Shown piece by piece: positions 2,718 to 40,417 of a stretch of DNA of 64,000 nt; the stretch's first letter is position 1, and each line of letters opens with the position of its first letter. Origin of the DNA: Halorussus salilacus (GTDB lineage: Archaea; Halobacteriota; Halobacteria; Halobacteriales; Haladaptataceae); contig NZ_CP099993.1 of NCBI RefSeq assembly GCF_024138125.1, forward strand, positions 2,046,001 through 2,110,000. Reading direction: 5' to 3'. The translations under genes were made by a program, and so were the position numbers. The notes under the pieces were generated by a model. That model saw only the letters and a program-made list of their open reading frames with translations. It did not search any database and was not told where the DNA came from.

Positions 2718-4358
2718 ATGCGCGTCCTCGGTATCGAGGGCACCGCGTGGGCCGCGAGCGCCGCGGTATACGACACGGACGACGACCCGACTACCGCTTT
2801 TATCGAGACCGACGCCTACCAGCCCGAGAGCGGCGGCATCCACCCGCGCGAGGCGGCCGAGCACATGAGCGACGCCGTCCCGCGCGTGGTCGAGGCCGCG
2901 CTCGCGGAGGCCGACGGGCCAATCGACGCCGTGGCGTTCTCGCGCGGTCCCGGACTCGGCCCCTGTCTGCGGACGGTCGGGACCGCCGCGCGCGCGCTGG
3001 CGGGGACGCTCGACGTGCCGCTGGTCGGGGTCAACCACATGGTCGCCCACCTCGAGATCGGCCGCCAGCAGTCGGGGTTCGACTCGCCGGTCTGTCTGAA
3101 CGCCTCGGGCGCGAACGCTCACGTCCTCGGGTATCGCAACGGCCGGTATCGCGTGTTGGGCGAGACGATGGACACCGGGGTCGGCAACGCCTTGGACAAG
3201 TTCACCCGCCACCTCGGGTGGTCCCATCCCGGCGGCCCGAAGGTCGAGGAGGCCGCGAGAGACGGCGAGTACGTCGACCTCCCCTACGTGGTCAAGGGGA
3301 TGGACTTCTCCTTTTCGGGCATCATGAGCGCCGCGAAGGACGCCCACGACGAGGGTGTCCCGGTCGAGGACGTCTGCTTCTCCCTGCAGGAGAACGTCTT
3401 CGCCATGCTCACGGAGGTCGCAGAACGCGCCCTCTCGCTGACTGGGAGCGACGAACTCGTCCTCGGGGGCGGCGTCGGGCAGAACGCCCGCCTCCGGGAG
3501 ATGCTCGCGGAGATGTGCGACCAGCGCGGGGCCGACTTCTACGCGCCCGAACCTCGATTCCTCCGCGACAACGCCGGGATGATCGCGGTGCTGGGCGCGG
3601 AGATGCTCCGGGCGGGCGACACCCTCGACATCGACGAGTCGGCTGTGGACCCGAACTTCCGGCCCGACGAGGTGGCGGTCGGGTGGCGCTCGGACGAGGA
3701 GTCCGTCGCGGTCCGGCGCGAGGAGAGCGACGAGGTGACCGGCGCGGAGGCGACGGTCGAGATCGGCGCGGAGACCGTCACCAAGCGCAGGCTACCCAAG
3801 AGCTACCGCCACCCGGAGCTCGACGACCGCCTCCGGCGCGACCGGACGGTCCTCGAAGCCCGCCTGACGAGCGAGGCCCGCAGGCAGGGCGTTCCCACCC
3901 CGGTCGTCTACGACGTGGACCCCGCGGAGGGGACCCTCGTCTTCGAGCGCGTGGGCGAGACAGACCTCCGGGAGGGGCTGACTCCCGAGCGCGCCCGCGA
4001 CGTGGGCCGCCACCTCGCCGCGATTCACGCCGCGGGGTTCGTCCACGGCGACCCGACGACCCGAAACGTCCGGGTCGGACGGCGCGGCGCGCCGTCCGAC
4101 CCGAGCGAACGGGCCGAGAGCGACGCGACCACCGACCGGGCCGACCGGACCTACCTCATCGACTTCGGCCTCGGCTACTACACCGACGACGCCGAGGACT
4201 ACGCGATGGACCTCCACGTCTTCGGTCAGAGCCTCGATGGCACCGCCGACGACGCCGAGGCGCTCCGCGAGGCGTTCGAGGACGCCTACGCCGAGGCGGG
4301 CGACGAGGCGGTCCTCGACCAACTCCGGGAAGTCGAGGGTCGGGGTCGGTATCAATAG
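2718..4358 (+). CDS. kae1-bud32: Bifunctional Kae1/Bud32: tRNA t6A synthase and KEOPS kinase
   Basis: 546 residues from the ATG at 2718, 4 nt after eS27A. The N-terminal Kae1 domain (about 1-325) starts RVLGIEGTAWAAS and has the metal-binding NHMVAHLE (His107, His111) plus the late GGGVGQN block. The C-terminal Bud32 domain (about 350-546) has the catalytic HGDPTTRN (His443-Asp445) and IDFGLG (Asp482) motifs of this small RIO-like kinase. Kae1 transfers threonylcarbamoyl from TC-AMP to A37 of ANN-decoding tRNAs, and Bud32 supports the KEOPS complex. The fusion occurs in many euryarchaea. Confidence 0.97.
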   Translation: MRVLGIEGTAWAASAAVYDTDDDPTTAFIETDAYQPESGGIHPREAAEHMSDAVPRVVEAALAEADGPIDAVAFSRGPGLGPCLRTVGTAARALAGTLDVPLVGVNHMVAHLEIGRQQSGFDSPVCLNASGANAHVLGYRNGRYRVLGETMDTGVGNALDKFTRHLGWSHPGGPKVEEAARDGEYVDLPYVVKGMDFSFSGIMSAAKDAHDEGVPVEDVCFSLQENVFAMLTEVAERALSLTGSDELVLGGGVGQNARLREMLAEMCDQRGADFYAPEPRFLRDNAGMIAVLGAEMLRAGDTLDIDESAVDPNFRPDEVAVGWRSDEESVAVRREESDEVTGAEATVEIGAETVTKRRLPKSYRHPELDDRLRRDRTVLEARLTSEARRQGVPTPVVYDVDPAEGTLVFERVGETDLREGLTPERARDVGRHLAAIHAAGFVHGDPTTRNVRVGRRGAPSDPSERAESDATTDRADRTYLIDFGLGYYTDDAEDYAMDLHVFGQSLDGTADDAEALREAFEDAYAEAGDEAVLDQLREVEGRGRYQ

Positions 4359-4418
4359 AGCGAAACTAATCTGGTTGCACCGATACGATACCGACCAGCC
4401 TCTTGTTGCTTTAATTGC

Positions 4419-5090
4419 TTAGACCGGGACGATTTGTCCACCAACCACAAAAATTGTCAAAAGCGACGCAAGTATCGTTGCCCATCGTAGACCCTTCCAC
4501 AGATAGGGATGCAACTTCTTGTTCGATAGCCGTATGAGCGTATACGGATGAAGATAGTCGATAATGCTCTTTAGTATCGCACTGAGTATCAGACCACCAA
4601 AACCCATGACGAACACGTCACCAGACTCATCGACATTAAAGTGAGTCCCCCACCCGGTACCTATAGCTATCAATCCGACCCCGACACTGAGGCCGATTAC
4701 AGTTATCGCAAGCCGCTTCTCTACGAATGTTCGTATTTTGTCACCCCGGTGGTCGAAGTAGTCCTCAATCTGACTCTGTTTCCGTCTCACCCAACCTTGC
4801 TTGCCACTTATCCAGAGTTTAATTTCATTTTCGTCCTCATCTGCTGTAATTTTAATCTTTCCATCGTCTGACTCCGCGGTAAACTCGAATGAGTGTACGA
4901 AGTCGGGGAGGGTATTATCGGCTAAGACTTCGTCTGTATTCGAGTATTCGTACGTGAATTGCCCATTGTGAATTTTCAATTCAATTTCGGAGTTTTCTCC
5001 ATTCTGCCGTAATAACTCCTCGATGTCTGCGAGATCGTCTTCCTCGAAGTGAATCGATGGTAGATTTGCTTGATACTTGGCTCTCGGCAC
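4419..5090 (-). CDS. AT-rich orphan membrane protein of unknown function
   Basis: 223 residues from a GTG at 5090. The N-terminal half (1-130) is soluble and charged; the C-terminal half has about three membrane segments: LAITVIGLSVGVGLIAIGTG, a second around FVMGFGGLILSAILKS, and a last one ending ASLLTIFVVGGQIVPV. A TATA-like TTTTATAG lies about 20-25 nt upstream of the GTG, so the mRNA is probably leaderless. Base composition is far more AT-rich than the flanks and codons such as ATA, AAT and TTA are frequent. I infer recent acquisition. I do not recognise the family. Confidence 0.72.
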   Translation of the reverse strand: MPRAKYQANLPSIHFEEDDLADIEELLRQNGENSEIELKIHNGQFTYEYSNTDEVLADNTLPDFVHSFEFTAESDDGKIKITADEDENEIKLWISGKQGWVRRKQSQIEDYFDHRGDKIRTFVEKRLAITVIGLSVGVGLIAIGTGWGTHFNVDESGDVFVMGFGGLILSAILKSIIDYLHPYTLIRLSNKKLHPYLWKGLRWATILASLLTIFVVGGQIVPV

Positions 5091-5215
5091 ATATACATAG
5101 AATAACTACTATAAAATAAGTCAAACTATACAATCAAGATAGATGGCCGGTCTGTAGAGGGATTCTCGTCCGAACAGCCAAAGCACTTTATTCCCGTCCG
5201 ACGTACTTTTCTCAC

Positions 5216-5485
5216 ATGGCAGACAGACCCAGCACCGGAACCCTCTTCGGCGTGCCGTACAACTTCGAGCGTCCGAGCATCGGGCGCATGCTGTCGGCGT
5301 ACTGGAAACCCGGCGACGGGATGCTCGTCGAGAAACCGTTCGGCGTCGGCTACACGCTCAACCTCGCCAACTGGCGGTCGTGGCTCGTGCTGGCGGTCGC
5401 TGGCGCGCTCCTCTGGCACGAGCGTCAGGGCGACGCCGCGGAACCCCGAGACCAGCCGGTCGAGGTCGTCGTCGACGACGACTGA
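5216..5485 (+). CDS. Small haloarchaeal membrane protein (DUF5808-like)
   Basis: 89 residues. The first part, beginning TGTLFGVPYNFERPS, is followed by a glycine-rich block and one hydrophobic segment SWLVLAVAGALLW, then an acidic tail. I recall this pattern as the short haloarchaeal family annotated DUF5808; the number is from memory. Function is unknown; one C-terminal membrane anchor is likely. Confidence 0.78.
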   Translation: MADRPSTGTLFGVPYNFERPSIGRMLSAYWKPGDGMLVEKPFGVGYTLNLANWRSWLVLAVAGALLWHERQGDAAEPRDQPVEVVVDDD

Positions 5486-5624
5486 TTCTTCGGCGGTTCG
5501 TCTCTTCGTCGCGGGGATTGGTGTCGTCACGAGCGGCTTCGCCGTTCTGCGTAGGGATTGGAACGTGCCGAGTTGGAACGTTCTCATCCACGACGAACCG
5601 GAGGTGATTGACCGCGACCGTCCA

Positions 5625-5858
5625 GAAAGCCCTCGTCCGCTCGCCACCGGCGGACAAACCGCGTCCGCCGAGCCCTCGCTCGCTCCGCTCACGAGGAGGC
5701 CGCTCAGCGACATATCTGCGCCTCACCGCAACGCACCGCATCGGCGCAGATAGGGGTCGCTGAGGCGACTAAACTGCACGCGAGCGGACGGCCCCTTTCA
5801 GTCCCACCCTGAAGATTGGCCCACCGGCTATCGCGCGGTAGATGATTCACGAGCCGAA
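5625..5858 (+). repeat. Dispersed structured element, family 1, copy A
   Basis: This occupies most of the 411-base gene-free gap between two convergent genes (5486-5896). It starts GAAAGCCC and ends near CCCCTTTCAGTCCC (5793-5806), with a further similar tail to about 5858. Predicted pairing: CGTCCGCTCG with CGAGCGGACG (10 bp), then TCAGCGAC with GTCGCTGA, then TATCTGCGCC (5713-5722) with GGCGCAGATA (5743-5752). Copies B (20546) and C (63928) keep the layout with different stem sequences. This copy has an extra hairpin-rich insert of about 55 nt near 5643-5700. It could be an RNA, a cruciform or a non-autonomous element. Confidence 0.75.
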
Positions 5859-5896
5859 ACGAACACTCGAACTCCGGAAAACAGGCCTCCGCGACC

Positions 5897-7132
5897 TCAG
5901 TACGCGTAGCTCGGGAGCGACCCCTCGGTGACGATACCGGTGTCGTCCTCGGAGTCGAGTTTCTCCATGGCGTCCTCGAAGTCCCCGTGAGTGACCTCGG
6001 TGCGGCCGTCGCGGATGGCGAACATCCCCGCCTCGGTCGTCAGGCTCTCGATGTGCGCGCCGCTGTAGCCGTCGGTCTCGGCCGCGAGCGTCTCGAAGTC
6101 CACCTCGTCGGCGACGTTCATCTCGCGGGTGTGGATGGCCAGTATCTTCTCGCGGGCCTCCTGACTCGGCTCGGGGACCTCGATGAGCCGGTCGAAGCGA
6201 CCGGGCCGGAGGATAGCCTGATCGAGCATGTCGAAGCGATTCGTGGCGGCGATGATGCGAATCTCCCCGCGGTCCTCGAAGCCGTCCATCTCCGAGAGCA
6301 GTTGCATCATCGTCCGCTGGACCTCGGCGTCACCCGAGGTCTTCGAGTCGGTCCGCTTGGCGGCCACCGCGTCTATCTCGTCGATGAAGACGATGGCTGG
6401 CTCGCGCTCGCTCGCCAGCTCGAAGAGGTCCCGGACCAGCTTCGCGCCCTCGCCGATGAACTTCTGGACGAGCTCGGACCCCGCCATCTTGATGAAGGTG
6501 GCGTCGGTCCGGTTGGCGACCGCCTTCGCCAGCATCGTCTTGCCGGTGCCGGGCGGGCCGTGGAGGAGCACCCCGCTCGGGGGCTCGATGCCGACCGTCT
6601 CGAACTGCTCGGGGTTCTCCAGTGGCTGTTCGACGGTCTCGCGTACCTCCTGAAGCTGGTCTTCGAGGCCGCCGATGTCCCCGTAACCGACGTCGGGCGA
6701 CTCGTCGACCTCCATCGCCTGCGCGCGGGCGTCGGTCTCGGCGTCCAGTACGGTCTGGACCGTAAAGGAGTCGTTGACCGCGACGCGGTCGCCCGACTCT
6801 ATCTCCTCGCGGAGCCGCGGAGACACCTCCGTCAGCACCTCCTGGTTGTTGCCGTGCTGTTTGATAACGACGCCGTCGTCGGTGAGTTCCTCGGCGGTCG
6901 CGACGTACAGCGAGGTGGTCTTGAGCGTGTCGTTCTCGCGCTCGATGCGGTCGACCTCCTCGCGGAGGCGCCCGCGGCGTTCGCGGGCGGCGTCGAGGCG
7001 CTCTTCGAGCGTGGCGTTCACGTCCACGAGGTCGGCGAAGTGGTCCCGAAGCGCCGCGAGCCGCTCCCGCTCGCTCATGTCGGGGTCGAGTTCCAGCGTG
7101 GGTTGGTCGGGGACGGGTGGACTGCGCGACAT
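5897..7132 (-). CDS. pan: Proteasome-activating nucleotidase PAN (AAA ATPase)
   Basis: 411 residues. Order: coiled coil (about 18-75), OB domain (about 75-140), then one AAA module with Walker A HGPPGTGKTM, Walker B VFIDEID, sensor AATNRFD and arginine finger ILRPGRFDR. PAN forms the hexameric unfoldase that feeds substrates into the archaeal 20S proteasome. The C-terminus reads SYAY, so Tyr is last rather than penultimate; it does not match the strict HbYX gate-opening motif. A TATA-like CTTTTAAG lies upstream at about 7160-7167. Downstream, towards 5625, is structured element A. Confidence 0.95.
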   Translation of the reverse strand: MSRSPPVPDQPTLELDPDMSERERLAALRDHFADLVDVNATLEERLDAARERRGRLREEVDRIERENDTLKTTSLYVATAEELTDDGVVIKQHGNNQEVLTEVSPRLREEIESGDRVAVNDSFTVQTVLDAETDARAQAMEVDESPDVGYGDIGGLEDQLQEVRETVEQPLENPEQFETVGIEPPSGVLLHGPPGTGKTMLAKAVANRTDATFIKMAGSELVQKFIGEGAKLVRDLFELASEREPAIVFIDEIDAVAAKRTDSKTSGDAEVQRTMMQLLSEMDGFEDRGEIRIIAATNRFDMLDQAILRPGRFDRLIEVPEPSQEAREKILAIHTREMNVADEVDFETLAAETDGYSGAHIESLTTEAGMFAIRDGRTEVTHGDFEDAMEKLDSEDDTGIVTEGSLPSYAY

Positions 7133-9230: not shown

Positions 9231-11023
9231 CGGATGAGCGCCGCCATCTCGTTGAGGTGGTCGTCGTACACGTCGAGCGCGCGCTGGATGGGTTCGGGCG
9301 AGGACATGTCGACGCCCGCGATTTCGAGGAGGTCGAGCGGGTACTCCCGCGAGCCGCTCTGGAGGAACCGGAGGTAGTCCTCGACCGCGGGTTCGCCCTC
9401 CTCCAGTATGCGGTCGGCGAGCGCGACCGCCGCACTCATGCCGGTGCTGTACTGGTAGACGTAGTAGCTGTAGTTGAAGAAGTGAGGGATGCGCGACCAC
9501 TCGCGGGCGATTCGGTCGCCGACGACCGCGGGCTCGTAGAACTCCGCCTTGAGGTCGCCGTATATCTCGTCGGCCTTCTCGGGGGTCAGGGCGTCGCCGT
9601 CCTCGACGACCTCGTGGGCCCGGTGCTCGAAGTCGGCGAACATGGTCTGGCGATAGAGCGTCGAGCGGAAGCGTTCGAGGTACTCGTTGAGGACGTGTCG
9701 CCGGAAGGTGGGGTCCTCGACGGTTTCGAGCAGGTGGTGGGTCAGCAGGGTCTCGTTGACCGTGCTGGCGACCTCCGCGACGAATATCTCGTAGCTCCCG
9801 TAGACGTACGGCTGGTTCTCGCTGGTGAGCTGGGAGTGAAGCGAGTGGCCCAGTTCGTGGGCGAGCGTGAACATCGAGGAGATGTCGTCCTGCCAGTTCA
9901 TCAGGATGAACGGCTGGGTGTCGTACGTGCCGCTGCTGTACGCGCCCGACCGCTTGTTCGCGGTCTCGTACACGTCCACCCACCGGGACTCGAAGCCCTC
10001 CTTCACGCGGTTCTGGTAGTCGTCGCCGAGCGCGTCCAGCGCCGACACGACGTACTCGCGGGCCCGTTCGTACTCCACGTCCGGGGTCTCGGTCTCGGTC
10101 ATGGGCATGTAGAGGTCCCACATCCGGAGCTCCTCGACTCCCAGGCTCTCGCGCTTGAGGTCGGCGTGGCGGTGGAGCTTGTCGAGGTTGTCGCGAACGG
10201 TGTCCACGAGGTTGTCGTACACCTCGACCGGGACGTTCGGCCCGTCCATCGCGGCCTCTCGGGCGGTGTCGTAGTCGTGGATTCGCGCGAGCTTCACGTC
10301 GGTCTTCACGTTGTTCTTGTACGCGGTGCCGATGGTGTTGTGGACCTCACCGAGCCGGTCGTAGAACTCCTCGTAGACGGTCCGGCGGAACTCCCGATCC
10401 GGATTCTTCTGGAGCGTGGTGAAGTTGCTCTGGGTTATCTCGATGCCCTCGCCGTCGGGCTTCTCGACGGTCGGGAAGTCGAGGTCGGCGTTCAACAGCA
10501 TGTTGTAGATGTCGCCCGACGCGCCCGTGACCTCGCCGAGCTCCGCCAGCACGTTCTCGACCTCGGCCGACCGGGTGTGCTCGGCCATCCGCAACACCTC
10601 GTGGAGGTAGTGGTCGTAGGTCTCGAGCCCGTCGGTCGACTCGAGCATCCGGTCGAGTTCGTCGCCGTCGAGCTCCTGAATCTCGGGCCCCATAAAACTC
10701 GCGGCGCTGCTTGCCTTCGATGACAGGGAGCTCGAACGGGATTTCAGCGCCTGATAGTGCTGATTCGCCGTGTCCTCGTCGCTCCGCATCCGGGCGTAGG
10801 AGATGATTTTCTTGGCCTCCCGCATGATGTCGTCGCGGAGTTCGAGCGCCGAGAGGAGCGTCTCGCCGTCCTCGGTGAGTCGGCCCTCGTAGGCCGTCAG
10901 CTCGTCGAGACGTTGCTCTACCTCGTCGTAGGCAGCTTCCCAGTCGTCGTCGGTCTCGTAGATGCTCTCCAAGTCCCACTTGTACTCGGGGTCGACATCC
11001 GACCGTTCGGGAACCGAACTCAT
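9224..11023 (-). CDS. pepF: Oligoendopeptidase F (M3 zinc metallopeptidase)
   Basis: 599 residues, normal length. The zinc site HELGH lies at about residues 389-393, followed by the third-ligand helix around YEIFVAEVAST and the conserved late block PHFFNYSYYVYQYSTG. The N-terminal helical half is typical of PepF. The enzyme degrades short peptides in the cytoplasm; with PAN nearby the context is general protein turnover, though the genes are separated by the transducer. The stop codon lies in the first unit of a 24-bp minisatellite. Confidence 0.96.
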   Translation of the reverse strand: MSSVPERSDVDPEYKWDLESIYETDDDWEAAYDEVEQRLDELTAYEGRLTEDGETLLSALELRDDIMREAKKIISYARMRSDEDTANQHYQALKSRSSSLSSKASSAASFMGPEIQELDGDELDRMLESTDGLETYDHYLHEVLRMAEHTRSAEVENVLAELGEVTGASGDIYNMLLNADLDFPTVEKPDGEGIEITQSNFTTLQKNPDREFRRTVYEEFYDRLGEVHNTIGTAYKNNVKTDVKLARIHDYDTAREAAMDGPNVPVEVYDNLVDTVRDNLDKLHRHADLKRESLGVEELRMWDLYMPMTETETPDVEYERAREYVVSALDALGDDYQNRVKEGFESRWVDVYETANKRSGAYSSGTYDTQPFILMNWQDDISSMFTLAHELGHSLHSQLTSENQPYVYGSYEIFVAEVASTVNETLLTHHLLETVEDPTFRRHVLNEYLERFRSTLYRQTMFADFEHRAHEVVEDGDALTPEKADEIYGDLKAEFYEPAVVGDRIAREWSRIPHFFNYSYYVYQYSTGMSAAVALADRILEEGEPAVEDYLRFLQSGSREYPLDLLEIAGVDMSSPEPIQRALDVYDDHLNEMAALIRD

Positions 11024-37765: not shown

Positions 37766-38485
37766 ATGCCCCGCGCCGTCGCCATCAACGTGGGAGCGAA
37801 CACGAACGCGCCGGGCGTGCGCGGCCCGGTCTTCCCCGACGGGTCGTTCGAGTTCGTCCCCATCCCCGAGGAGTCCCCGACCCGCGAGTCGGTGTCGGTC
37901 CCGACCTACGCCGACCTCGACCTCGAAACCGAGATTCCCCCGGCGGCGCTCGACTCGCCCGTCCACCTCGACCCCGAGTTCGCGGAGTACCCCGAGTGCG
38001 AGCGTCACACCTACGGCGACCCCTTCGGCGTGAAGGCCCGGCCCCTGCTCGAACTGGCGGCGGGCGACTACGCGCTGTTCTACGCCACCCTGACCGCGCG
38101 GGGCGACCCCGAACGGGAGTGGATCGCGCCCGACTGGGGCGCGTACCTCGTCGGCGGGTTCCGACTCGCGCGCGACCCCGTCGCGGGCGAGGACTACCCG
38201 GACCTCCCGGCGGAGGTGCGAGCGGAGTTCGGGAACAACGCCCACGTCAAGCGCGAGGAGTTCGACGCCGCGGTGTTGCTGTTGGGCGAGGAGGACGAGT
38301 CGGGCCTGTTCGAGACCGCGGTCCCGCTGAGTTCCCCCGAGACGGGGTCGGAAGCGAATTGGGTGGTGACCGAGCTATCGAGCGATTCGGGGAAGGGGCC
38401 GTGGTGGCGTCGACCGATGAAATTTGGTGTCGAGGAGACCGAGGCGGTTCTGGGGTTGGTGGAGGAGGGGTACGAGGGCGTTTGA
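37766..38485 (+). CDS. Nmad3-like protein (putative nucleotide-modification-associated domain)
   Basis: 239 residues. The start AVAINVGANTNAPGVRGPVF followed by DGSFEFVPIPEES, then YGDPFGVKARPLLELAAGDYALFYATL and a late FGNNAHVKREEF fit the layout I recall for Nmad3, predicted from phage and bacterial base-modification loci. The family call is from memory. No membrane segment. It precedes a HARE-HTH/nuclease-like gene by 68 bases on the same strand, which supports a DNA-modification-related role. Confidence 0.68.
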   Translation: MPRAVAINVGANTNAPGVRGPVFPDGSFEFVPIPEESPTRESVSVPTYADLDLETEIPPAALDSPVHLDPEFAEYPECERHTYGDPFGVKARPLLELAAGDYALFYATLTARGDPEREWIAPDWGAYLVGGFRLARDPVAGEDYPDLPAEVRAEFGNNAHVKREEFDAAVLLLGEEDESGLFETAVPLSSPETGSEANWVVTELSSDSGKGPWWRRPMKFGVEETEAVLGLVEEGYEGV

Positions 38486-38553
38486 GGAGTGGTCCTCGCT
38501 GACTCCTCGGAAGCAGTAGGAATACTTTCGTGTTTCCGATCACAGTCGCCGAT

Positions 38554-39279
38554 ATGTACCAGTACGAGGCCGTCGAGAAGGTGATGCGCGAGAACGACGG
38601 CTACGCGACGCTCAAGCACCTGTATCAGCACGCGCCGCGGGTCGAGGGAAGCGAGTGGGGGACGAAGACGCCCAACGCCAGCATCCGGAGAATCGTACAG
38701 GAACGCGACCGGTTCGTCAAGGTCCGGCCGGGACTCTGGGCTCTGCAGGACCGATACGACGAGCTACCGGCGCATGTGACCGCCGCGTCGGTTCCGAATG
38801 AGAAGCGCGAGCAGTACGATCACTGGTACTTCCAGGGGCTACTGGCCGAAACCGGGAACGCGCGACGGGCCGACACCTGGGTGCCCTCTCAGGACAAGAA
38901 CCGGAAGTTTCTGGACCGAACACTGGGGGACGTTCGGACGCTGGACTCCCTTCCGCAGTTCGGCTACCGGGAACTGGTCCAGCGCGCCAGCACGGTCGAC
39001 GTGGTCTGGTTCAACGACCGTCGGATGCCAGCCAGTCTCTTCGAGGTCGAGTTCTCTACGGATTTCCAGAACTCGCTCCACAAATTTCTGGACCTGCAGG
39101 ACTACTACGCGAACTTCGTCGTCGTCGCCGACGAGACTCGACGCGGGCAGTTCGAAAAGCGAATCGACCAGACCGGATTCGGCCCCATCCGCGACCGCGT
39201 CGATTTCCTCGACTTCGAGACGGTCTCGGAGTTACACGCCGCGACGAACAAAACGCCAGACCTACCCTGCCTGTCGTAA
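38554..39279 (+). CDS. HARE-HTH domain fused to a PD-(D/E)XK-like nuclease domain
   Basis: 241 residues from the ATG at 38554 (an upstream in-frame start at 38530 is possible). Residues 1-66 (YEAVEKVMRENDGYATLKHL ... PNASIRRIVQERDRF, VRPGLWALQD) match the HARE-HTH wing. Residues 140-195 show ASTVDVVWF (Asp149) and LFEVEFS (Glu164, Glu166), a D-x14-E-x-E spacing close to BamHI-type active sites, where ExE replaces ExK. HARE-HTH is known from restriction enzymes and chromatin proteins. No methyltransferase is adjacent. The stop lies 15 nt from the 3' end of tRNA-Gly. Confidence 0.65.
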   Translation: MYQYEAVEKVMRENDGYATLKHLYQHAPRVEGSEWGTKTPNASIRRIVQERDRFVKVRPGLWALQDRYDELPAHVTAASVPNEKREQYDHWYFQGLLAETGNARRADTWVPSQDKNRKFLDRTLGDVRTLDSLPQFGYRELVQRASTVDVVWFNDRRMPASLFEVEFSTDFQNSLHKFLDLQDYYANFVVVADETRRGQFEKRIDQTGFGPIRDRVDFLDFETVSELHAATNKTPDLPCLS

Positions 39280-39294
39280 TCGAGAGAATTCGAG

Positions 39295-39365
39295 TGCGCC
39301 GGCCGGGAATTGAACCCGGGCTATGAGCTTGGGAAGCTCATGTCCTACCACTAGACCACCGGCGC
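39295..39365 (-). tRNA. trnG-CCC: tRNA-Gly (anticodon CCC)
   Basis: 71 nt. Acceptor GCGCCGG pairs with CCGGCGC, D-arm GTCTAGTGGTAGGAC, anticodon stem TGAGC/GCTCA with loop TTCCCAA (anticodon CCC), T-arm CCGGG-TTCAATT-CCCGG, discriminator A. CCA is not encoded. No intron. Its 5' flank carries partial tandem copies of the acceptor strand (39366-39489). Confidence 0.96.
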
Positions 39366-39619: not shown

Positions 39620-40417
39620 ATGGTAGACCTGCGCTTCTCCGACGACGAACTCGAAGCCCAGCGCGAACACATCGTCCAGTTCATCCGGGACGCCACCGAC
39701 GCGGCCGGAACCGACGAGGCGGTGCTGGGGCTCTCGGGCGGCATCGACAGCACGCTGACGGCGTACCTCGCGGTCGAGGCGCTGGGCGAGGACAAACTCC
39801 ACGGGCTGGTGATGCCCGGCGCGGTCAGCGACGACGACAACATGAGCGACGCCGAGTGGGTCGCCCAGGAGCTGGGAATCCCCCACGACGTGTTCGAGAT
39901 CAACCCCATCGTCGAGACGTTGCTCGACACCTACCCCGAGGCAGAGGACGACCGGATGGCGGTCGGCAACGCCCGGGCCCGGACCCGCGCGGTGCTGAAC
40001 TACCTCGTCGCCAACCGCGAGGGCGCGCTGGTGCTGGGCACCGGCAACCGCAGCGAGGCCGCGGTCGGCTACTTCACCAAGTACGGCGACGGCGCGGTCG
40101 ACTGTCATCCCATCGGCAACCTCTACAAACAGCAGGTCCGCCAGCTCGCGGGCCACGTCGGTGTCCCCGACGAACTGGTCGAGAAGCCCCCGACCGCCGG
40201 GCTCTGGGCGGGCCAGACCGACGAGGAGGAACTGGGCATCGGCTACGACGAACTCGACGCGGTGCTGGCGCTCCACGTCGACGGCCCGCTGTCGGCCGCC
40301 GCGACCGCCCGGCAGGTCGACGCCGTGACCGAAGACGAGGTCCGTCGCATCCGGGGGATGTACGAGCGGAGCGAGCACAAGCGCACGGTCCCGCCGTCGC
40401 CCGACCCGCTCGACTGA
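39620..40417 (+). CDS. nadE: NAD+ synthetase (ammonia-dependent)
   Basis: 265 residues. PP-loop LGLSGGIDSTLTAYLA, then LVMPGAVSDDDNMSDAEWVA, the substrate block GNARARTRAVLNYLVAN, GTGNRSEAAVGYFTKYGDG and the late KPPTAGLWAGQTDEEELG. No glutaminase domain, so ammonia is the nitrogen donor. It forms NAD from nicotinic acid adenine dinucleotide. Confidence 0.97.
   Translation: MVDLRFSDDELEAQREHIVQFIRDATDAAGTDEAVLGLSGGIDSTLTAYLAVEALGEDKLHGLVMPGAVSDDDNMSDAEWVAQELGIPHDVFEINPIVETLLDTYPEAEDDRMAVGNARARTRAVLNYLVANREGALVLGTGNRSEAAVGYFTKYGDGAVDCHPIGNLYKQQVRQLAGHVGVPDELVEKPPTAGLWAGQTDEEELGIGYDELDAVLALHVDGPLSAAATARQVDAVTEDEVRRIRGMYERSEHKRTVPPSPDPLD

Follow-up and report, generated by a model that had tools for sequence, protein, structure and literature searches.

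The window analyzed here, a stretch of 64,000 nucleotides of the Halorussus salilacus genome, contains two adjacent genes lying on the same strand and 68 nt apart, the second of which ends next to a tRNA-Gly gene. The first encodes Nmad3; the second encodes a protein with an N-terminal HARE-HTH domain and a nuclease-like C-terminal half, hereafter the HARE protein. A first-pass annotation had proposed that the two genes form a defence pair directed at modified DNA. The features of the locus are as follows.

37766..38485, + strand: Nmad3, 239 aa (PF18754 E=1.3e-48, residues 3-228, 166.3 bits against a cut-off of 27)
38520..38529, + strand: weak TATA-like element, 25-34 nt 5′ of the HARE start codon, suggested by comparison of upstream sequences
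38554..39279, + strand: HARE gene, predicted HARE-HTH / PD-(D/E)xK-type restriction endonuclease, 241 aa, ATG start
38566..38748, + strand: HARE-HTH (winged helix) domain, residues 5-65 (PF05066 E=2.5e-5)
38797..39213, + strand: nuclease core, residues 82-220, alpha-beta-beta-beta-alpha-beta in the AlphaFold2 model (PADLOC REase_II E=1.8e-5)
38998..39000, + strand: D149, first of the acidic residues in the putative active site, invariant in 56 sequences
39043..39051, + strand: E164-V-E166 of the putative active site, at the end of strand 159-165; E164 (39043-39045) and E166 (39049-39051) invariant in 56 sequences
39294..39365, - strand: tRNA-Gly(CCC), attachment site of an integration hotspot, with partial 3′-end copies after the HARE gene in G018 and G027
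39620..40417, + strand: conserved outer border of the hotspot, a gene that we take to be nadE (NAD synthase), with 77-83% identity and synteny with tRNA-Gly across most genomes of the family

The HARE stop codon and tRNA-Gly(CCC) are separated by a gap of 14 nt, so that the gene does adjoin the 3′ end of the tRNA, for which 15 nt had been given in the first-pass annotation. While the listed open reading frame starts at GTG 38530 and would encode 249 aa, homologues align from the methionine of ATG 38554, which is therefore the best start; with it, the residue numbering used previously (HARE 1-66, D149, E164-x-E166) is exact. Comparison of upstream sequences revealed TTTAT about 27 nt 5′ of the start codon in the HARE copies of G018, G027, Haloarcula and G321, so these copies are probably transcribed on their own. 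The weak element in the window lies at a similar distance, which suggests that the window's HARE gene likewise has its own, leaderless, promoter.

Domains and predicted active site of the HARE protein

The HARE-HTH call is upheld by a PF05066 match that covers profile positions 5-69 of 71 and scores 25.0 bits, just below the Pfam cut-off of 25.9 and thus borderline by itself, and by the winged helix that AlphaFold2 places at residues 3-64; the homologue in L135 exceeds the cut-off with 29.2 bits. The model (pLDDT 93.7, pTM 0.90) was computed from an alignment of 47 rows, nine of the 56 homologue rows having been left out, and conservation is counted over all 56 sequences. An alignment of 10 sequences gave a pLDDT of 55, and that model is not used for fold claims. 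Beyond the winged helix, the model consists of helix 82-103, strands 107-109, 150-153 and 159-165, helix 172-180 and strand 187-192, in the alpha-beta-beta-beta-alpha-beta order of a PD-(D/E)xK core. Structure prediction, which the first-pass annotation had named as a check on its nuclease call, thus returns both a winged helix and a PD-(D/E)xK-type core.

D149 supplies the conserved acidic residue before strand 2 and E164-x-E166 the ExE variant, in place of ExK, on strand 3. These three residues are invariant in the alignment of close relatives (10 of 10). Across 56 homologues of the nuclease half they remain so, as do Q94 and T169, and therefore the pattern is not due to chance. Its earlier description as a BamHI-like ExE site in a beta-strand context agrees with both this invariance and the model.

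A foldseek comparison with solved structures gave no match of E<0.001 for the HARE protein. The winged helix resembles the RNA polymerase delta subunit (prob 0.97) and also forkhead winged helices, and the nuclease matches, the best at E 0.1, are weak (MmcB-like, prob 0.98, E 0.1; YaeQ, prob 0.84, E 0.1; EcoT38I, prob 0.35). Sequence searches of solved structures with the HARE protein and four alignments yielded nothing relevant. Because the structural matches are not significant, the fold call is based on topology and motif conservation. The PADLOC model REase_II (PDLC03534) matches residues 108-206 of the HARE protein and finds the homologue in L055 at E=2e-8; homology of the HARE protein to annotated type II restriction endonucleases reaches E values down to 3e-10. 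With high confidence we predict that the protein joins a HARE domain to a PD-(D/E)xK-type nuclease, and with moderate confidence that it is an active restriction enzyme. The N-terminal winged helix would bind DNA and set the choice of target, and the C-terminal domain, through D149 and E164-x-E166, would cut both strands with the help of metal ions, the active form probably being a dimer.

Alternatively, the gene could be a decayed or domesticated remnant whose product no longer cuts, or acts as a DNA-binding regulator or a repair nuclease. Repair-type nucleases (MmcB-like, Mus81) are indeed among the foldseek matches, no cognate methylase is known, and a HARE copy at tRNA-Thr in G321 is broken, its middle (about residues 43-196) missing. 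However, the window copy is intact and keeps every invariant residue, and archaeal and bacterial sequences share the catalytic motif without variation. We consider such a remnant quite unlikely.

Nmad3 at the border of a tRNA-Gly integration hotspot

The assignment of the first gene to the Nmad3 family is confirmed by the PF18754 match. Nmad3 is present in all 28 genomes of the family and in 309 of the 391 genomes of the class sample. Full-length HARE genes are found in 3 of the 28 family genomes and in 5 of the 391 class genomes (G000, G018, G027, G093 and G366, the last with two copies). Further relatives occur in Haloarcula amylovorans, Ignavibacteriales, Anaerolineales, an Acidobacteria MAG, two IMG/VR contigs and further genomes; reference phages contained no close relatives. 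The presence of HARE is not associated with that of Nmad3 (Fisher p=1). Sporadic, independent of Nmad3 and present in so few genomes, the HARE gene is accessory.

A functional two-gene defence system made of Nmad3 and the HARE nuclease would account for their arrangement in the window, adjacent and on the same strand, and for their proximity in two further genomes of the genus. Against it, outside this genus the two genes are never neighbours in the genomes searched, the outcome that the first-pass annotation had named as refuting the pair, and inside the genus the intervening DNA of two of the three genomes (944 nt in G018 and 1225 nt in G027) holds different genes. Nmad3 is a core gene with or without HARE, and HARE occurs without Nmad3 in the complete genome G366 and in eight bacterial or viral carriers searched, two of which are viral records that may be fragments. 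Where both are present they may also lie apart, with the HARE gene on the plasmid-like contig C2 and Nmad3 on C1 in G093, and with the two on different contigs in G412. The promoter-like elements of the HARE orthologues also speak against a joint system. The defence pair is thus highly improbable, and we conclude with high confidence that Nmad3 and the HARE nuclease are functionally unrelated. Nmad3, near-universal in haloarchaea, is a gene without an assigned function, even though the family takes its name from base-modification loci; a search of the literature on Nmad3 found nothing useful.

The closeness of the two genes is explained by a hotspot border. The site is a tRNA-Gly integration hotspot, with the layout Nmad3-[11 nt to >16 kb]-tRNA-Gly-nadE. 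Nmad3 faces tRNA-Gly(CCC), with nadE beyond, in 25 of the 28 family genomes, and the island boundary suggested in the first-pass annotation is supported. For tRNAs beside nadE, the spacing from Nmad3 ranges from 11 nt in G004, an essentially empty site, to more than 16 kb; in G011, G021 and G027 the stretch examined does not reach the tRNA. In six genomes the tRNA has a phage-integrase gene as neighbour; individual profile checks covered three of these genes, and a bulk scan gave matches for six hotspot proteins. A second tRNA-Gly or tRNA-like copy is present in G017 and G019. In G018 and G027, partial copies of the tRNA 3′ end come after the HARE gene, as expected of an integration site; in three genomes the distance from a HARE copy to a tRNA-Gly 3′ end, whole or partial, is about 75 nt or less. 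On the 5′ side of the window's HARE gene no extra copy of the tRNA 3′ end was found, only a chance 10-mer. Nmad3 is thus a core haloarchaeal gene that borders the hotspot, and HARE is its neighbour by chance: what had been proposed as a modified-DNA defence pair is replaced by a core gene at the edge of a tRNA-Gly hotspot.

This haloarchaeal hotspot gathers integrases, methylases and restriction genes. Its other cargo comprises type I restriction genes, type II methylases, mad2/mad8 homologues and ordinary metabolic genes. HARE copies are also found near other tRNAs: near tRNA-Thr in Haloarcula and, as the broken copy, in G321, beside the same gene that flanks the window's tRNA-Thr, and, for one of the G366 copies, less than 1 kb from tRNA-Val. 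No tRNA was seen near the other G366 copy or the plasmid copy of G093. A protein family lacking a Pfam match is encoded just 5′ of the HARE gene in G018 (L059:6559-7353) and, in pieces, near a G366 HARE gene (L062:6347-7152 and 9531-10829); it also occurs as hotspot cargo without HARE in G022 and G024.

Methylase linkage and the mode of restriction

DNA methylases are the immediate neighbours of six of the bacterial or viral HARE nucleases. The neighbour is an N6_N4 methylase in L056 (6e-29) and L057 (3.5e-56), a D12 methylase in L135 and L136 (about 1e-38), where an N6_N4 methylase is also nearby, and a Dam methylase in L176 and L177 (2.5e-21 and 3.5e-31). A D12 methylase lies about 1 kb from the HARE nuclease in L168, and the flanking DNA examined in L055, L167 and L175 contains no methylase. 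In L135 and L136, which are large IMG/VR contigs, the combination of D12 and N6_N4 methylases around the HARE nuclease could be a restriction-modification cassette carried by a virus.

In haloarchaea, paralogues of the nuclease half that have a different N-terminus lie beside methylases in L089, L092, L093 and L095, and in L090 the paralogous nuclease half is fused to a methylase. The L090 reading frame (3225-5930) encodes 902 aa, with methylase domains followed by the nuclease domain at the C-terminus, a single-chain methylase-nuclease. The paralogues in L089, L091, L094 and L095 are about 345 aa long and weakly resemble EVE domains at the N-terminus (Pfam E 0.012-0.08 for L091, L094 and L095), and some of them adjoin large Eco57I/MmeI-type methylases.

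In type II systems the methylase protects the host and the nuclease cuts unmodified DNA. The methylase linkage seen in bacterial and viral relatives and in haloarchaeal paralogues, the most telling of the new evidence on how the enzyme works, points to a type II restriction-modification architecture. Three methylase families are represented beside the relatives, so that no fixed target can be deduced. The HARE protein itself belongs to a type II endonuclease family, and neither the window nor the haloarchaeal HARE copies examined have an adjacent methylase. The earlier observation that no methylase accompanies the pair is accordingly correct, and within the 64-kb window no plausible gene carries a DNA-methylase-like motif (an HPPF at 596-1270 is not convincing). 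This lineage is therefore methylase-linked in bacteria and viruses and solitary in haloarchaea.

A survey of the N6_N4, D12 and Dam families in the window's genome identified no cognate methylase: it revealed two N6_N4 methylases (G000:C1:1130789 and 2140243) and none of the D12 or Dam families, which G018 lacks as well. One of the two N6_N4 methylases apparently belongs to a family with members in each of the ten genomes searched; this family may correspond to the CTAG orphan methylase of an earlier study (PMC6471742). GATC or CTAG avoidance was considered as a sign of the target and rejected: many genomes of the family are depleted in GATC, and those without the HARE gene more strongly. Observed over expected GATC counts are 0/41 in G013, 2/118 in G026, 4/105 in G017 and 90/280 in the window, with no depletion in G019 (186/179), and are unlinked to HARE.

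The main rival to a type II enzyme is modification-dependent cutting, in which the HARE domain would recognize a base modification on DNA entering the cell and the nuclease would leave all other DNA uncut, with no need for a methylase. All haloarchaeal copies examined stand alone, and D12 and Dam methylases are missing from both the window's genome and G018, which keeps this type IV-like mode in contention. HARE-HTH domains have also been proposed as readers of modified bases (PMC10853773, PMC11037411), and the haloarchaeal paralogues join the same nuclease to the weakly matched EVE-like domain. Most bacterial or viral relatives, however, are not solitary, and an enzyme that cuts the modification made by an adjacent methylase would be self-destructive. 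Nor is the presence of HARE linked to the absence of D12 methylases (Fisher p=1, 19 genomes). The type IV-like cutting suggested in the first-pass annotation thus keeps its footing in the solitary haloarchaeal copies and is weakened by the methylase neighbours elsewhere; we regard it as possible, though on balance unlikely.

The reading we prefer, with a probability of about 0.6, takes the HARE gene to encode an accessory restriction endonuclease that stands alone at a tRNA-Gly hotspot, Nmad3 having no specific part in it. Its ancestors would be type II restriction-modification enzymes, whose relatives are accompanied by an adenine/N4 methylase. That methylase would have become uncoupled from the HARE nuclease in haloarchaea, where the nuclease most likely still restricts incoming DNA. 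The host would be spared by a methylase elsewhere in the genome that blocks the sites, which we favour, or alternatively by a HARE domain turned to reading foreign modification. Counting against the stand-alone endonuclease are the weak foldseek matches, the lack of an identified cognate methylase and a HARE match just below the Pfam cut-off. A more specific proposal, which we hold to be doubtful, treats the haloarchaeal HARE nuclease as one half of a restriction-modification system that has been split, or as a modification reader with a new target. It would spread as near single-gene cargo at tRNA 3′ ends and rely for protection on a core methylase that the host already has. Methylase-linked and solitary members of the lineage together form a compact natural contrast in which to ask whether it is sequence or base modification that HARE domains read.

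Relation to known systems

The fusion of HARE-HTH to a restriction nuclease is of an already known kind, to which the solitary haloarchaeal lineage is added here. Aravind and Iyer reportedly described HARE-HTH/REase fusions in 2012. Like such fusions, the window protein links HARE-HTH to a restriction endonuclease domain of the PD-(D/E)xK type, and the nuclease subfamilies may differ. They have been found in Dnd and BREX neighbourhoods (PMC10853773, PMC12839542), whereas the window copy stands alone, with no Dnd, BREX or methylase genes seen beside it. Type IV endonucleases with winged-helix (wH) fusions, namely HhiV4I, wH-HNH and wH-GIY-YIG (PMC11037411), are likewise small proteins that pair a winged helix with a nuclease; several come from Halobacteria, and methylases are rarely found next to them. 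They differ in having an ordinary wH and, in the haloarchaeal examples, an HNH nuclease, where the HARE protein has HARE-HTH and a D...ExE core.

BamHI carries a D...E-x-E catalytic pattern with Glu in place of Lys. The HARE protein has the same pattern; no sequence similarity between the two was found, and BamHI is absent from the fold matches listed.

REase_II (PDLC03534) of PADLOC-DB is matched over only part of the model, with the nuclease half aligning over 100-145 residues and sharing invariant H, Q, G and D and the D...EVExT motif. The N-terminus differs: it is HARE-HTH, where the plasmid family has a long N-terminal region and the haloarchaeal paralogues an EVE-like domain. The long plasmid relatives (about 420 aa; L144, L145, L146, L148, L151 and L152, and also L147) are annotated as type II restriction endonuclease or hypothetical. 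They have no adjacent DNA methylase and recurrently lie within copper/heavy-metal resistance clusters that contain P-type ATPases, multicopper oxidase, DUF305 and CopY/M56.
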